From Butyrivibrio sp. (GTDB lineage Bacteria; Bacillota; Clostridia; Lachnospirales; Lachnospiraceae), in assembly GCA_017446685.1 (NCBI GenBank), contig JAFSQI010000125.1, forward strand, positions 1-59,216: DNA of 59,216 nucleotides, written 5' to 3'. The position numbers and the translations under genes were made by a program. Of the stretch, positions 34,630 to 59,216 are shown in pieces (position 1 is the stretch's first letter; each line of letters opens with the position of its first letter). The notes under the pieces were generated by a model, which ran no database searches, was not told where the DNA came from, and worked only from the letters and a program-made list of their open reading frames with translations.

Positions 34630-35397
34630 TTAATCAAATTCTCTTTCAATCACTTCTTCTGCTAATAATTTATATGCTTCTGCTCCTGCTGATTTTGGCT
34701 CATATATATTTATTGGTAAACCGTAACTAGGAGCCTCTGCTAATCTTATATTTCTCGGAATGATTGTTTTATAAACATTTTCTTTTAAATGTTCTTTTAC
34801 ATTTTCTACTACCTGTAATGATAGATTTGTTCTGGAATCAAACATAGTAAATACTACTCCTTCCATTTCCAAATCTGGATTAAGTCTTTCTTTTACTAAA
34901 TTCACTGTATGTACTAACTGGCTTAATCCTTCCAAAGCATAATACTCACATTGAATTGGTACAAGAACTGTATCAGCCGTGGTCATTGCATTAACAGTCA
35001 ACATACTAAGTGATGGTGGACAATCAATTATAATAAAATCATATTTATCTTTAACTTTGTTTATTGCATTTTTTAAAATATACTCTTTTTGTTCAACATC
35101 TATAAGTTCTATCTCTACAGCAGCAAGATTTACATTAGATGGTATGATATCAAGATTTTCAAAAGCTTCATTGTGAATTACTTCTTCAATCTCAGACTCT
35201 CCTATCATTAACTCATATATTGTATTTTCTATTTCATTTTTATCAAGTCCTAATCCGCTTGTTGTATTTCCCTGAGGATCAGTGTCTATAACAAGAACTT
35301 TTTTTCCTTTTTCTGCTAAAGATGCTGATAAATTTATTGATGTTGTTGTTTTTCCAACTCCACCCTTTTGATTAGCGATTGCAATAACTCTACCCAT
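34630..35397 (-). CDS. parA: Chromosome-partitioning ATPase ParA (Soj)
   Basis: This 255-residue Walker-type ATPase has the deviant Walker A KGGVGKTT at 11-18, the second phosphate motif VLVIDTDPQGN and Walker B FIIIDCPPSL. It binds DNA non-specifically and works with ParB in origin segregation and, in B. subtilis, control of DnaA. AGGGGAGAG precedes the ATG. It is upstream of parB by 101 bases. Confidence 0.97.
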   Translation of the reverse strand: MGRVIAIANQKGGVGKTTTSINLSASLAEKGKKVLVIDTDPQGNTTSGLGLDKNEIENTIYELMIGESEIEEVIHNEAFENLDIIPSNVNLAAVEIELIDVEQKEYILKNAINKVKDKYDFIIIDCPPSLSMLTVNAMTTADTVLVPIQCEYYALEGLSQLVHTVNLVKERLNPDLEMEGVVFTMFDSRTNLSLQVVENVKEHLKENVYKTIIPRNIRLAEAPSYGLPINIYEPKSAGAEAYKLLAEEVIEREFD

Positions 35398-35569: not shown

Positions 35570-35687
35570 ATGACTTCTTGTGGGCAAAAGCGGAAATTTT
35601 CCGCAAGAATCTTGCTTTGCTAGATACGCTTTCATCTAAAGATGAAAGCTAGTCCAGTACGGTTTATGTTTTTCTGAGGAAAAAAAA
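35570..35687 (+). repeat. Structured 118-bp repeat, copy 1
   Basis: Read on the plus strand it has four successive stem-loops: CTTGTGGG/TCCGCAAG, ATCTTGC/GCTAGAT, CTTTCATC-TAAA-GATGAAAG, and TTTTTC-TGAG-GAAAAA. A conserved unpaired stretch AGCTAGTCCAGTACGG lies before the last hairpin. Copy 2 is at 59086-59201 in the opposite orientation, with about 90% identity by eye. Differences in stems are mostly G-C to G-U changes, so the fold is retained. Confidence 0.9.
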
Positions 35688-36177
35688 CTATACTTATTAT
35701 TTTTAATTGATATATATTCTTTTAGTCCAATATTTACCTTCTGCTAAATCAATTTTTATTAATACTCATAGCATAATGTTTTTAAATTGGTTGTACCATT
35801 AAACTGTTCCAATATAACATATTCATGCCTATTAAATTATTATAATATTTTTCTGATTTCAAAACATTTTTGCTAATAGTACACTATTTCAATAGTTATA
35901 CAATTTGTATTTGAACTATGAATGGAATCACTGTTACTATTTAGGTGAAAATTTTACTCACTATGCATCTATTTTATTAAGATATGATGCAGAATCAAGT
36001 ATTATTTTCTATAAACACCTTTTTAAAACTTTTTTATTTTAATGATATAAAAAATTGAGCTATGATTGATTTTTACATTTCACTACATCTTGTATTAAAG
36101 AATTGTTATATTTTCAAACACAATTTTGTCTATTATCTATGTTTCACGCCATCTCTATACTATATTTAGTATCAATA

Positions 36178-36276: not shown

Positions 36277-37017
36277 TTATTGAAGAGGTTGTCTTGATGG
36301 AACTCCTGCTTTACGAGGATATTTTTTTGAAGTAGATTCTTTTTTATCAATTATACAAATAGTTCTATTTACATTCGTATCGGGTAACACAAATTCATTA
36401 GAAGAAGAAATTTTACCGCCTAGTAAATGTATAGCACCTTTTGCATTATTTAATTCAGTCGATGCTTTTTCACTTTTATATGCAATAAATTTACCACCAA
36501 CTTTAACATATGGAAGACAATATTCGGATAAAGTAGACATATTGGCAACTGCTCTAGAAACTGCAATATCAAACTGTTCTCTCATTGATTCAGGTTTAGT
36601 GGAAGCAAAATCTTCTGCTCTACCATGAACAGTAATGATAGAACCAATAGAATTAAGATTCAAATCATCAATCACGGTATTTAAAAATTTCAGTCTCTTA
36701 TTTAAAGAATCAAATAAAGTAACATGTAACTGAGGAAAAACAATTTTCAAAGGAATACCCGGAAAGCCAGCTCCTGTACCAATATCAATTAGACTATAAT
36801 CTTCTTTAGAAAAATCAAAAAACTTGAAAGCAGAAATACTATCTACAAAATGAAGATTACATACATCTTCAAAATCTGTAATGGCAGTAAGATTCATTAC
36901 CTCATTCCACTTTACTAATAATTCATAATATGTATTAAACTGTGATAATTGATCATCAGATAACTCTATACCAAAATATGAAAAATGCTCAATCATATTT
37001 TTATATTTATTTCTCAT
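36277..37017 (-). CDS. rsmG: 16S rRNA (guanine527-N7)-methyltransferase
   Basis: This 246-residue SAM-dependent enzyme makes m7G527 in 16S rRNA. The SAM-binding motif [15 protein letters not shown] (about 80-94), [13 protein letters not shown] and the [16 protein letters not shown] region are diagnostic. Loss in other bacteria gives low-level streptomycin resistance. It overlaps the end of mnmG by 11 bases and is translationally coupled to it. Confidence 0.96.
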
Positions 37018-43439: not shown

Positions 43440-43849
43440 TCAAGCCATAAAAAGCCATAAAATAAGCGATAATTTTATTAATATTTTTTTAAAAAAAATT
43501 GCAACAATATGTGGTGCTTTAAAAAGTTATCCACATCAAAATGTTGATTTTGTGGATAACGTGTTGATTAATACTATTTCGTATTTTTTATCCACATTTG
43601 TTTCATTTTTTGTGGATAACTTGGTATATAATTGGTTGATAATTAATTAAAAATCCACCAACCAAGCGAAAAAAAACTGTAGATTAATAAAAGTGGAAAA
43701 AATAAGATTTTTCCACATCGCTATTTTTCAATATGTTTTTTTTTTCGAACAAAAAAAGTTTTCCACATATCCACAATAGTTTGATATTTAAAAGCAATTA
43801 TTATAAAATAGTTAAAGTCTAAAATTATGCCTTGCTGGGGAGTTATTTA
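43440..43849 (+). other. oriC: Chromosome replication origin, upstream DnaA-box cluster
   Basis: Four perfect 9-mer DnaA boxes are present: TTATCCACA at 43527-43535 and 43588-43596, and its complement at 43551-43559 and 43611-43619. They alternate in orientation. Near-consensus boxes lie at 43709-43717, 43759-43767 (TTTTCCACA) and 43767-43775 (ATATCCACA). The region between rpmH and dnaA is A/T-rich and has no gene. A small reading frame across it (43432-43650) is coincidental. Confidence 0.93.
43781..43809 (+). promoter_or_regulatory. Probable dnaA promoter
   Basis: TTGATA (43781-43786), 17 bases, TAAAAT (43804-43809). It directly follows the DnaA boxes, consistent with autoregulation by DnaA. 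Confidence 0.6.
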
Positions 43850-45250
43850 ATGCAATCATCAAATGAAATCACAAATTTATTAAAAACAAACTGGGAAAAT
43901 ATCAAGAAGCAAATACGAGTTGAATCAGGAATTACAGATATTTCCTACAGAACATGGATTGATCCGCTTACTATATATAAGGTAGAAAGTAATACAGTTT
44001 TTATTCTTATTCCACAGGATAATCCTGTAGCTCTACAATATATAAGTAAGAACTATCTGGATTTCTTTAAGGTTACAATATCTGAGTTTTTGGAAGAAAT
44101 GGTAGAAATTTCTTTTACCTTAAACAAAGATATTATTAATAATGAAGAAACAGATAAAAATGTTTCAGAAAATAATGATCAAACCCACTTTACGAACGGC
44201 ATAAACAATGATCATTCAAATCTTAATCCAAAATACAGATTTGATACTTTCGTAGTTGGAAGCAACAACAAGTTTGCTCATTCAGCTTCACTGGCTGTTG
44301 CTGAATCACCGGGAATATCATACAATCCTCTATTCTTATATGGCGGACCGGGACTTGGAAAAACTCACCTTATGCATTCAATTGGTCATTTTGTAATGGA
44401 ACATGATCATACTGCCAAGGTTTTATATGTAACATCGGAGCAGTTTACCAATGAAGTTATTGAATCTATCCGAAGTGGTAAAGCTGAAAGTATGTCAAAA
44501 CTTCGAGAAAAATATAGAACAGTCGATGTTCTGATGGTCGATGACGTACAGTTTATTATAGGAAAAGAATCAACACAGGAAGAATTTTTCCATACATTCA
44601 ACGAATTACATCAGGCCGGAAAACAAATTATATTATCATCAGATAAACCGCCAAAAGAAATGGAAACTCTCGAAGAAAGATTCCGATCAAGATTCGAAAT
44701 GGGACTTATAGCAGATATTCAGTCTCCAGATTATGAAACAAGAATGGCAATTCTTCGTAAAAATGCAGAAAATTACGGCAAAAAAATTGACGACGAAGTA
44801 ATTAATTACATTGCTACAAATATCAAATCAAATATTCGAGAACTTGAGGGAGCTTATAACAAAATTATTGCATATTCAAGACTTAATAATGTAGATATTA
44901 CTCTTGAAAATGCAATGGAAGCACTTAAAGACATAATCTATCCGGACAAGTCCAAAGTTATTACTCCTCAACTCATAATAGATACAGTTTGTGAACACTA
45001 TGGTACAAAAAAGGAAGACATTTTCTCCAAAAAGAGAAATGCAGAAATTGTTCTTCCAAGACAGGTCATAATGTATCTTTGTCGCGAACATACAGATGCT
45101 TCACTTGAAGAAATCGGAAAACTACTTGGTAAAAAAGATCACACAACTGTAATGAGTGGCATCAAAAGAATTAAGAAACAGATTTCTATTGATGATGAAC
45201 TCAATAAGAACCTTGACATAATAATGAAGAAATTAAATCCCTCATTATAA
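43850..45250 (+). CDS. dnaA: Chromosomal replication initiator protein DnaA
   Basis: This 466-residue AAA+ initiator has domain I (1-85), a variable acidic linker (about 90-125), an ATPase core with Walker A GGPGLGKTH (165-173) and Walker B MVDDVQF, and a C-terminal domain IV whose CREHTDASLEEIGKLLGKKDHTTV helix-turn-helix recognises DnaA boxes. The ATG at 43850 follows GGGGAG; a TTG six codons earlier is less likely. DnaA boxes lie on both sides of the gene. Confidence 0.98.
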   Translation: MQSSNEITNLLKTNWENIKKQIRVESGITDISYRTWIDPLTIYKVESNTVFILIPQDNPVALQYISKNYLDFFKVTISEFLEEMVEISFTLNKDIINNEETDKNVSENNDQTHFTNGINNDHSNLNPKYRFDTFVVGSNNKFAHSASLAVAESPGISYNPLFLYGGPGLGKTHLMHSIGHFVMEHDHTAKVLYVTSEQFTNEVIESIRSGKAESMSKLREKYRTVDVLMVDDVQFIIGKESTQEEFFHTFNELHQAGKQIILSSDKPPKEMETLEERFRSRFEMGLIADIQSPDYETRMAILRKNAENYGKKIDDEVINYIATNIKSNIRELEGAYNKIIAYSRLNNVDITLENAMEALKDIIYPDKSKVITPQLIIDTVCEHYGTKKEDIFSKKRNAEIVLPRQVIMYLCREHTDASLEEIGKLLGKKDHTTVMSGIKRIKKQISIDDELNKNLDIIMKKLNPSL

Positions 45251-45569
45251 TGAATAATTCACAAAATGATAAAAGTTATCCACAAAAAGTGGATAACTTT
45301 CTTGATAACTTGTGATTAATATGTTATCTGATGTTAATTGCAAGTGGATAAAAATATTTATGCCCCATTTGTTAAAATTTGGCTTGTATATAACTTTTTG
45401 GTTTTCGACATGAAATTTTTAGTTTTCAACAATCAATAATTTGTAAAAAAGCCGCATAGATTGTATAATGAAATGGGTTTTACACAAATCAACAGCTATT
45501 ACTAAGAATTTTATTATTTATTAATAAATATTTTATAGTTTTTGGCAGACGAAGGGAGTATGTGGTTAG
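45251..45569 (+). other. Second oriC module between dnaA and dnaN
   Basis: A palindrome GTTATCCAC-AAAAA-GTGGATAAC just after dnaA contains a perfect DnaA box (45276-45284) and a one-mismatch box in reverse (45288-45296). A further AGTGGATAA is at 45343-45351. An A/T-only tract follows (about 45508-45545) and is a good candidate for the unwinding element. The palindrome could also stop dnaA transcription. Confidence 0.8.
45441..45469 (+). promoter_or_regulatory. Promoter of dnaN
   Basis: TTGTAA (45441-45446), 17 bases, perfect TATAAT (45464-45469), about 100 bases before the dnaN start. Confidence 0.7.
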
Positions 45570-46679
45570 ATGAAATTTGTTTGCTCTAAATCTAATCTGG
45601 TAAACGGATTACAAATTGTATCAAAAGCAGTACCTTCTAAAACTACAATGTCAATATTGGAATGTATACTTATTGATGCTACAGAAGGAATTATTAAATT
45701 TATTGCCAATGATATGGAACTTGGTATACAAACTATAGTAGATGGAAGTATTGTTGAAAGAGGTTTTATTGCACTGGATGCAAAAATATTTTTTGATATT
45801 ATAAGAAAACTCCCAGACAATGATGTTACAATCGAATCCGATTCTAACAGTAAAGTTACTATTAGTTGTGAAAAAGCAAAATTTAATCTTATTGGCAGAA
45901 AAGGTGATGACTTTACTTATTTGCCAACAATAGATAGAATTAACGGAGTATCAGTTTCTCAATATACTTTGAAAACAGTAATACAACAGACTATTTTCTC
46001 CATAGCAATTAATGATGCAAATAAGATGATGTGCGGAGAATTATTAGAAGTTGATAATGATAATCTAAAGCTTGTATCACTTGATGGACATAGAATATCT
46101 ATAAGAAGAGTGAAACTTGCAGAAAATTATCCCTACAGAAAAGTTATTGTTCCAGGTAAAACACTTGGTGAAATTAGTAAAATTTTAAGTGATAGTACCG
46201 AAAAAAATGTAAGTATTTATTTTACAGACAAACATGTTTTGTTTGAGTTTGATAATACTACTGTTGTATCCAGACTTATTGAAGGCGAATATTTCAGTAT
46301 TGATCAAATGCTTTCAAGTGATTATGAAACAAAGATCAATATTAACAGAAAAGAATTTCTTGATTGTATAGATAGAGCTACTCTTCTTGTAAAAGAGGGA
46401 GATAAAAAACCTGTTATAGTTTCAATTACAGATACTCAGATTGAATTAAAGATTAATTCTGCAATTGGAAGTATGGATGAAGTAATTGATATTGAAAAGC
46501 AAGGCAAAGATCTTATGATTGGTTTCAATCCTAAGTTTTTAATTGATGCCCTGAGAGCAATTGAAGATGAAACAGTTGATATATATCTTGTAAACCCGAA
46601 AGCTCCATGTTTTATGAGGGATAAGGATTCAACATATACATATCTTGTTCTCCCTGTTAACTTTACAACAGTTGATTGA
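45570..46679 (+). CDS. dnaN: DNA polymerase III sliding clamp (beta)
   Basis: This 369-residue clamp has three repeated DNA-clamp folds. MKFVCSKSNLVNGLQIVSKAVPSK, MSILECILI in the first fold and the C-terminal YTYLVLPVNF are family hallmarks. GAAGGGAG precedes the start. It begins a dnaN-rlbA-recF-gyrB run with short gaps. Confidence 0.98.
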   Translation: MKFVCSKSNLVNGLQIVSKAVPSKTTMSILECILIDATEGIIKFIANDMELGIQTIVDGSIVERGFIALDAKIFFDIIRKLPDNDVTIESDSNSKVTISCEKAKFNLIGRKGDDFTYLPTIDRINGVSVSQYTLKTVIQQTIFSIAINDANKMMCGELLEVDNDNLKLVSLDGHRISIRRVKLAENYPYRKVIVPGKTLGEISKILSDSTEKNVSIYFTDKHVLFEFDNTTVVSRLIEGEYFSIDQMLSSDYETKININRKEFLDCIDRATLLVKEGDKKPVIVSITDTQIELKINSAIGSMDEVIDIEKQGKDLMIGFNPKFLIDALRAIEDETVDIYLVNPKAPCFMRDKDSTYTYLVLPVNFTTVD

Positions 46680-57961: not shown

Positions 57962-58981
57962 TTATGAATTGCTGATTTCAATGAATTTATTCAAGGTTTC
58001 AGTAGCTTTTCTGGAATCAATTATTTTAGCAGCAAGTTCAACTCCTTCTTTAAAGGTGTCTGCTTTGCCACCAATATAGAGTGAAGCGCCTGCGTTTAAG
58101 AGAACTGCTTCACGCTTTGGACCTCTTTCTTTTCCTGAAAGAATGTCTCTGGTAATCTGTGCGTTTTCTTCAGGAGTACCTCCGACAAGATCATCTTTAG
58201 AACAAGTCTTAAATCCAAAATCTTCAGGACAGATTGTGTAGGATTTGTACCAGCCATCATTGATTTCACAGATGGAAGTTGGAGAACTCATTGAAATTTC
58301 ATCAAGTTTATCCTGACCAAATACTACCATTCCTCGTTTTACACCAAGATTTATTAAAACCTGTGCAAGTGGAATAATAAGATAATCATCATATACTCCA
58401 AGAAGTTGCATTGATGGTTTGGCAGGATTAGTAAGAGGACCTAAGATATTGAAAACTGTTCTAAATCCAAGTTCTTTTCTTATTGGTCCGACATATTTCA
58501 TTGAAGTGTGGTATTTCTGTGCGAAGAAAAAGCACATTCCAACTTTTTCAAGAAGCTCTATACATTTGTCAGGACTCTGATCGATATTTACACCAAGAGC
58601 TTCGAGGCAATCGGCTGTTCCACTTTTTGATGAAGCTGCCCTGTTTCCGTGTTTTGCAACTTTCATTCCACCTGCTGCAGCTACGAGTGCCGATGTTGTG
58701 GAAATGTTAAAGCTGTGAGCATTATCACCACCGGTTCCAACTATTTCAAAAACATCCATTCCTGTTTCGACGTGAGTGGCATGCTCTCTCATAGCTGTAG
58801 CACAACCTGCAATTTCATCCGTTGTTTCTGCTCTTGCGCTTTTGGTTGAAAGAGCTGATAAAAAAGCTGCATTTTGTGTAGGAGTTGTTTCACCGCTCAT
58901 TATTTCATTCATGACGGTATAAGCTTCCGCATAGGAAAGGTCTTCTTTGTTTACAATTTTTACAATAGCTTCCTTGATCAT
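57962..58981 (-). CDS. trpD: Anthranilate phosphoribosyltransferase
   Basis: This 339-residue enzyme transfers phosphoribose to anthranilate. [15 protein letters not shown] and [21 protein letters not shown] are the PRPP and anthranilate sites. The start at 58981 has GGAGG 9 bases upstream; the frame extends five codons more. It is the first gene of the trp run in this window: trpE and trpG are not seen upstream within the remaining 235 bases, so the first step is encoded outside. Confidence 0.96.
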
Positions 58982-59044
58982 AATTAATTCCTCCAAAAAG
59001 AATTTTTTTACAAACTAATGATTATGGTTTTGCTTATAATAAGC

Positions 59045-59075: not shown

Positions 59076-59085
59076 ATAGGTTTTT

Positions 59086-59201
59086 GTTTTTCCTCAGAAA
59101 AACAGAAACCGTACTGGACTAGCTTTCATCTTTAGATGAAAGCGTATCTGGCGAAGCCAGATTCTTGCGGGAAATTTCCGCTTTTGCCCGCAAGAAGTCA
59201 T
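59086..59201 (-). repeat. Structured 116-bp repeat, copy 2
   Basis: Read on the minus strand this is the same element as 35570-35687: CTTGCGGG/CCCGCAAG, ATCTGGC-TTC-GCCAGAT, CTTTCATC-TAAA-GATGAAAG, the conserved AGCTAGTCCAGTACGG, and TTTTTC-TGAG-GAAAAA. All four stems are perfect here. It is followed within 10 bases by the terminator before trpD, so element plus terminator would form a compact transcript. Confidence 0.9.
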
Positions 59202-59216
59202 AAAAAAATCCCTGAC

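Follow-up and report, generated by a model that had tools for sequence, protein, structure and literature searches.

The element and its two copies

The window, by which we mean the whole stretch of 59,216 nucleotides analysed here, comes from a Butyrivibrio genome and carries two inverted copies of a short element. Copy 1 (35570-35691, forward strand, 122 bp) lies between parA (34630-35397, reverse strand) and rsmG (36277-37017, reverse strand). Copy 2 (59076-59201, reverse strand, 126 bp) is intact and sits upstream of trpD (57962-58996, reverse strand). The two copies scored 85.9 and 115.4 bits, respectively, with covariance model R1, and 101.3 and 128.9 bits with the broader model R2. An initial annotation of this DNA had reported the pair, and both copies proved real when the stretches were read and aligned and the genome was searched. 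Its limits (35570-35687 and 59086-59201) located the copies properly but were slightly too narrow; the element runs from AT|GAC to CT|AT. Placing the copies on either side of oriC was reasonable from dnaA (43832-45250; dnaA and dnaN together, 43832-46679), the position of oriC being taken from dnaA only.

The assembly breaks at the repeat at the window end (59076-59216), where the window and contig C98 overlap by 141 bp. A second contig join, C109/C112, falls on another copy and also has an overlap of 141 bp. Because of these two joins, the 21 BLAST matches in this genome, some of them short or broken, correspond to 19 places. The 122-nt core of copy 2 recurs identically at two further places with unrelated flanks. 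A chance duplicate, the outcome by which the initial annotation would have given up its reading, was thus excluded by the 21 matches and by the identical cores at three places. A special role around oriC found no backing: the window copies are two of the 19 places, and in another genome, that of Butyrivibrio LC3010, 11 of 25 copies were on the G-rich strand (a small sample from one genome). Nor did this analysis give support to a role as a nucleoid site or to an inversion of the origin region; copy 2 is placed at a contig join, and no observation hinted at such an inversion.

Contig C98, which overlaps the window, carries a T-box-like leader beside the window end at 59216; copy 2 follows 28 nt after it. 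The leader, upstream of trpD (155-418 of locus L004), matched in an Rfam E-value search with 83.1 bits (E = 1.9e-18); this is below the Rfam gathering score of 93, and no T-box was called on C98 at gathering.

Fold of the window copies

In copy 1, on the forward strand, a closing stem P1 is formed by GAC at 35572-35574 and GTC at 35652-35654. It encloses hairpin 1 (35575-35609; an 11-bp stem in the family model and a loop with AAGCGGAAA), hairpin 2 (35610-35624, with one T.T mismatch) and hairpin 3 (35628-35649), which closes onto the junction through the TA/TA pairs 35625-35626 and 35650-35651. A single-stranded linker, CAGTACG (35655-35661), follows; its TAC is conserved, and the final G may take part in the pairing of hairpin 4 (35661-35689), the 3′ arm of which is damaged. 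In copy 2, on the reverse strand, hairpins 1 to 4 occupy 59162-59196, 59147-59161, 59122-59143 and 59079-59110, and the 3′ terminus CCTAT begins at the foot of hairpin 4. The block AGCTAGTCCAGTACGG, described previously as unpaired, is thus of two kinds: CAGTACG is mostly single-stranded, but the TA and GTC pair and close the junction.

The copies differ by seven substitutions, five of them before hairpin 4, and by a 4-nt deletion that damages the 3′ arm of hairpin 4 in copy 1, which is decayed. Two of the substitutions, in hairpin 1, keep a wobble pair (C-G to T-G and G-C to G-T), as the initial annotation had observed in support of folding. Its generalization to the stems did not extend to hairpin 2, where two substitutions in copy 1 turn one G-C into T.T, or to the damaged arm of hairpin 4; the others comprise one in a loop and two in hairpin 4. 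Because of the T.T in hairpin 2 and the damage to hairpin 4, the window pair by itself is weak evidence for folding, and it is copies in other species that supply the strong evidence.

The reading frame described earlier was found again by reading: 35 codons are open in copy 2, with TAG in copy 1. The element was also rightly taken as non-coding, since an internal stop was present in the frame of that ATG in 34 of 49 distinct copies. Nor did the lengths of these 49 copies run in multiples of three; by remainder they fell into groups of 21, 19 and 9.

Distribution in Butyrivibrio and related genera

Family A, as we call this element, was detected with model R1 in 20 of 79 Butyrivibrio genomes. 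The 59 without a match included near-complete ones; two genomes without a model match (G005 and G027) each had a short BLAST match. Two Butyrivibrio genomes reached at least 43 matches, 43 being the number of candidates scored per genome. The large searches scored 43 or 8 candidates per genome under strict filters, so that weak copies were lost and the copy numbers are minimum values. The element was present in 13 of 392 genomes of the order sample (genera g1, g33 and g60), in 3 of 397 genomes of the family sample (genera g1, g33 and g288) and, with R2, in 2 of 391 genomes of the class sample, namely our own genome and one relative, both in the same family; the genus, order, family and class samples overlap. 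Beyond Butyrivibrio, three other genera of the family carried the element.

A degenerate pattern recovered 32 stretches, among them stretches from Butyrivibrio LC3010, AC2005, NC2002, XPD2002 and the MAG RUI321. No match was found with an exact 28-mer in genome contigs, with an exact 22-mer in viral contigs, or by blastn against plasmids and phages with one query each (an LC3010 copy and copy 2 of the window). The earlier statement that the element matches no RNA family agreed with Rfam 15, which gave no element match at gathering, nor, when eight loci were searched, at E values of up to 1. In the literature searched, which was open-licence PMC papers, we recognised no description of Butyrivibrio repeats of this kind.

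Covariation of the fold

The consensus fold is a four-way junction, made up of the closing stem and three hairpins, and is followed by the linker and hairpin 4. The closing stem is GAC/GTC, or GCC/GGC in g288, and hairpin 3 reaches the junction through two pairs, CA/TG or TA/TA. In the consensus, the linker carries TAC and the loop of hairpin 4 carries TGA. The predicted fold of some copies, those of G025 for example, leaves no unpaired bases between any of the four helices.

When the covariance model was applied across the genome and its relatives, the fold was found to be kept and the stems to covary in other species. In an alignment (A7) of 51 rows from 50 sources, including distant genera, hand-picked for species spread among the listed matches of the genus, order and family searches, 37 of 41 base pairs changed on both sides and 97.2% of the cells were paired, counts that lean towards the fold because the rows were aligned to a model of the same structure. 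The covariation score was 0.617, against 0.189 in shuffled controls (none of 500 as high), which keep shared ancestry, and at most 0.129 in slid controls, which share the alignment. Further pair types, the weakest of five covariation measures, numbered 82 against 72.8, a value reached in 1 of 500 shuffles. In a smaller alignment of 49 copies, 32 of 41 pairs changed on both sides. RNAalifold run on our first alignment missed hairpins 2 and 3 as a result of misalignment.

Changes on both sides of a pair might also arise by mutation alone. In quasi-palindrome correction, one arm of a hairpin is copied from the other during replication. Such correction predicts strand symmetry and near-perfect arms with varying sequence, both of which were seen, and the junction pair, being at the foot of hairpin 3, might be correctable too. 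It fits less well with the closing stem, the halves of which are separated by some 80 nt, with three hairpins between them, and yet change on both sides. The middle pair of this stem was A-U in 42 and C-G in 5 copies across the family, although the C-G copies all belong to one lineage (g288). The junction pair, seen as C-G (25), U-A (17) and U-G (4), also speaks against correction. On the tree (51 rows, 47 scored) it went through at least 10 changes per column, and an independent-pair test leaned the same way, with four supported pairs in which the partner followed 3.2 times on average and opposed 0.0 times, which was not significant. Residues in loops and linker were conserved as well, which correction would not explain. 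We therefore consider correction an unlikely source of the paired changes as a whole. It is compatible with mobility and could contribute to the hairpin arms and, possibly, the junction pair. The closing stem appears to be the part of the fold that it explains least, on the evidence of one lineage. The conservation of pairing suggests that the shape of the element counts for more than the precise order of its letters.

Some parts of the fold may be dispensable: three copies in our own genome (L009, L010 and L011) stop before hairpin 4. Forms with a single hairpin also occur (L021 and L298). One of these, at about 340-385 of L298 on contig C77 of our own genome, is a mini-element of about 46 bp with hairpin 1 alone between AT|GAC and CCT|AT. 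Copies of two species (L125, L126 and L130 in G074; L132 in G007) have similar additional hairpins of about 50 nt inserted into the hairpin 2 loop; this insert may represent a module of separate history.

Termini and insertion sites

The left edge of the element is YAT (Y in 47 of 49 copies, AT in 47 of 49) and the right edge is ATR (TAT in 48 of 49, R in 48 of 49), in rows found with a model that itself includes the edges. The alignment, inspected by eye, showed the edges as NTACG-[hairpin 4]-CTAT and AT-GAC-[hairpin 1] in most rows. The two ends form imperfect inverted repeats, with a mean of 7.0 of 12 positions matching (3.1 in the control), and the full pattern YATRRNTTNYTG was present at both ends in 25 of 51 copies. 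An AT is present at both edges, and a two-base target duplication would look the same as an AT that belongs to the element. By eye there was no association between the Y and the R, which is in keeping with a palindromic target YATR rather than a longer duplication. A comparison of flanks likewise showed no correlation indicative of a longer target duplication; its 143 calls include false ones.

For empty sites, we compared LC3010 (G020) with six relatives at two loci. The intergenic DNA was too diverged to yield a clean empty site, and only one joint, at a gene end, was readable. There the adjacent gene stops at a TAG which takes in bases of the element, while the relative reads GTATGA, which fits a target AT|GA at the stop codon. 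Head-to-tail tandem copies have CTATGAC in common, and many flanks are pieces of element ends.

The end motif alone was uninformative, because a search of our own genome gave 71 sites (16 exact and 55 with one mismatch) against 70 for a reversed-pattern control. Four of these loci were opened, with ORFs listed for two, and no transposase was seen by eye; they held the 46-bp mini-element and a palindromic relative.

Gene context and orientation

For gene context we used 103 hand-listed copies and ORFs of at least 80 codons rather than annotation; six copies had no gene on one side. Eighty-seven copies had no overlap of more than 30 bp with such an ORF and 16 did. Gene 3′ ends facing the element were within 10 nt in 39 of 109 cases, but gene 5′ ends in only 5 of 85. 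This closeness to 3′ ends is what would be expected of a cis-acting terminator, or a stabiliser of mRNA 3′ ends, spread by selection. Against such a function, the orientation of the element was unbiased, in the copies read no run of T followed either hairpin 1 or hairpin 4, and the occurrence was patchy (20 of 79 genomes). We regard it as very improbable, and attribute the closeness to 3′ ends to the tolerance of insertions at stop codons.

The orientation data bear also on whether the element acts as RNA. The upstream gene was on the same strand in 54 and on the opposite strand in 43 of 97 copies, and between co-directional genes the two orientations were found 31 and 32 times. For an RNA made from one strand, G.U should be clearly favoured over A.C among stem mismatches. 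On the given strand we counted 30 G.T and 26 A.C in the 51 copies by alignment column; one further column pair was C.A in 17 of 49 copies. An earlier tally by a hairpin finder in 48 copies gave 14 G.T and 59 A.C, largely owing to a single position of hairpin 4 at which many related copies have C.A (33 in the tally). The excess at this position leans to the other strand, yet may go back to a single inherited change.

A structured RNA from one strand as the functional form, whether a small RNA or one that is reverse-copied into DNA, with the DNA copies as its genes or retro-copies, would account for the covarying helices and for the conserved single-stranded residues of loops and linkers, and the 50-nt insert in hairpin 2 resembles the peripheral helices of RNAs. 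However, there was no preference for G.U, orientation to genes was unbiased, no common promoter was seen by eye in the flanks beyond YAT/ATR, and Rfam gave no match. The unbiased orientation and the near equality of G.T and A.C argue against the one-strand RNA, which we consider improbable, and with it the small RNA that the initial annotation had suggested. The balance of mismatches and the orientation favour a role at the DNA level, or no strand-specific role.

Two further families with similar termini

In genome G025, family A adjoins two other non-coding structured repeats. Family B is 144 bp long (ATGACTTCTTGTCACT...AGTGACAAAAATCTAT) and family C about 200 bp (CTATAGATTTTTG...CAATAATCTATAG). 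The termini of A, B and C are alike, the two edges being YAT and ATR, with an RRNTTNYTG-like sequence inward of them, although those of B and C were defined from few loci (L104, L106, L111 and L114 in G025) and the ends of several B relatives are less clear. BLAST matches to B, many of them partial, were present in 26 of 79 Butyrivibrio genomes; those to C were present in 11 of 79, and all that were listed outside G025 were partial. Some genomes with B or C gave no match to A. Rfam gave no match on the four G025 loci with B and C. Because two other structured repeats have similar termini, the element looks like a member of a set, similar to BOX elements and MITEs, that is moved in trans.

Search for a transposase

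The element might be a passenger of a Y1 (HUH) transposase of the IS200/IS605 or RAYT type, as PATEs and REP-like elements are. It has hairpins at both edges; its left flank ends in AT, its right end is a fixed CTAT and its tandems are head-to-tail, as would follow from insertion after a short 5′ motif; and RAYT-sized Y1 genes are present in two genomes (G074 and G096). Several observations run counter to this explanation. Two genomes, G277 and G259, both 99% complete and with several copies, gave no Y1 match with an E threshold of 0.001, and our own genome (G000, 88.75% complete) has only a broken Y1. The edges are symmetric (YAT/ATR, imperfect inverted repeats), which to our knowledge is not a trait of IS200 elements, and no strand bias was apparent in the small sample of the one genome counted (11 of 25). 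Y1 genes were common whether the element was present or not (60 of 79 genomes), and no clear element end was seen at 56 Y1 loci, where the only matches to the element were short and at chance level (15-24 nt, best E 0.006). We rejected a Y1 transposase as the partner because Y1 does not follow the element and its loci lack a clear element end, and dependence on such an enzyme seems rather improbable overall.

The Y1 genes of G074 (C1:658395-658727) and G096 (C41:13783-14112) lie in open frames of about 250-280 codons, with only weak, short element matches nearby.

In a wider search for a parent, 319 fetched loci (1.33 Mb, partly overlapping) held 13 end pairs around ORFs, four of them with a large ORF; no transposase was seen by eye.

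Proposed mechanism

We interpret the element as mobile because its ends are sharp (YAT|GAC...CT|ATR), because identical copies are found in flanks that are unrelated, and because it forms tandems and occurs patchily. Its high copy number, mostly intergenic position and unbiased orientation in the copies examined support this interpretation, which was one of those put forward in the initial annotation and is also in keeping with the conserved fold. Thus we think it probable that family A, about 125 bp in length, belongs to the Butyrivibrio set A, B and C as a mobile, non-autonomous DNA repeat, and that its fold is kept as a DNA substrate. As part of this explanation, and with the same confidence, the window copies would be ordinary insertions, an old one at 35570 and a recent one at 59076. 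Points against it are that neither the Y1 search nor the 319 fetched loci tied a transposase to the element, that the comparison with relatives gave no clean empty site, and that some copies lack hairpin 4.

In this mobile repeat, an enzyme supplied in trans would recognise the short termini (about ten terminal bp), and perhaps the folded DNA too. It would cut at the central AT and join the element into YATR sites. The ends of the element are themselves YATR sites, which would produce tandem and nested arrays. Insertion in both orientations, as well as within and beside other copies, would follow from a palindromic target contained in the element ends. The fold would be kept as part of the DNA substrate, as a single strand or a cruciform, rather than for an RNA from one strand; from its conservation we infer that the fold is needed for movement. 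Various classes of enzyme come into consideration, a DDE transposase and a serine-type recombinase among them. A symmetric centre of two bases, flanked by half-sites that are short, would accord with site-specific recombination, although this is conjecture.

More tentatively, the three families might represent a Lachnospiraceae class of transposable folded DNA, with a flush four-way junction (A) or multi-hairpin cores (B and C) between short termini common to all, moved by a recombinase in trans at the AT of YATR. In such a class the core sequence would be nearly free and it would be mainly the shape that is inherited. We hold this broader proposal to be possible but doubtful.

The definition of a short mobile repeat normally rests on sequence. 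The element described here keeps its fold through extensive turnover of its stems in four genera. Lacking the signature that is usual for an RNA from one strand, it offers a testable case in which a mobile element would be recognised by its DNA shape. Model R2 can serve to annotate a repeat that breaks assemblies, as at the two contig joins in our own genome. Rumen bacteria also have, in A, B and C, a set of structured repeats without a name in the literature searched, the putative transposase of which would be a target for discovery.

Comparison with known mobile repeats

PATEs derived from IS200/IS605 have hairpins near both ends and insert beside a short motif. The element is similar in both respects. 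It differs in its symmetric edges (YAT/ATR), in showing no apparent strand bias in the small sample from one genome and in the two element-bearing genomes without a Y1 match. With REP sequences and REPINs and their RAYTs it has in common hairpins at the edges, short hairpin repeats, high copy number, arrays and single-hairpin forms. REP sequences have GTAG or CGTC tags beside the hairpin, according to a portion of PMC3733652. No such tag was seen when the alignment of the element was inspected by eye, and Y1 genes do not follow it.

MITEs such as RU-1/ERIC, Correia and QMITE are, like the element, short, non-coding, mobile, mostly intergenic and without their own transposase. The inverted repeats of the element, in contrast, cover only about 12 imperfect bp; it has at most a 2-bp AT duplication, and no parent IS was found in the 319 fetched loci. 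It falls within a loose definition of a MITE, whereas the firmer traits (long inverted repeats, a clear duplication and a known parent) are not clearly present.

BOX is modular, with A, B and C parts. In Streptococcus pneumoniae, BOX, RUP and SPRITE are several short repeat families that are bunched and inserted into one another, according to an excerpt of PMC10969869. Families A, B and C likewise adjoin and nest in G025. The differences are in lineage and sequence, in the helices, which in Butyrivibrio nearly all covary between species, and in the architecture, a four-way junction plus a hairpin, in families with similar termini. Among these systems, the element would appear to work most like BOX/RUP/SPRITE and the MITEs.
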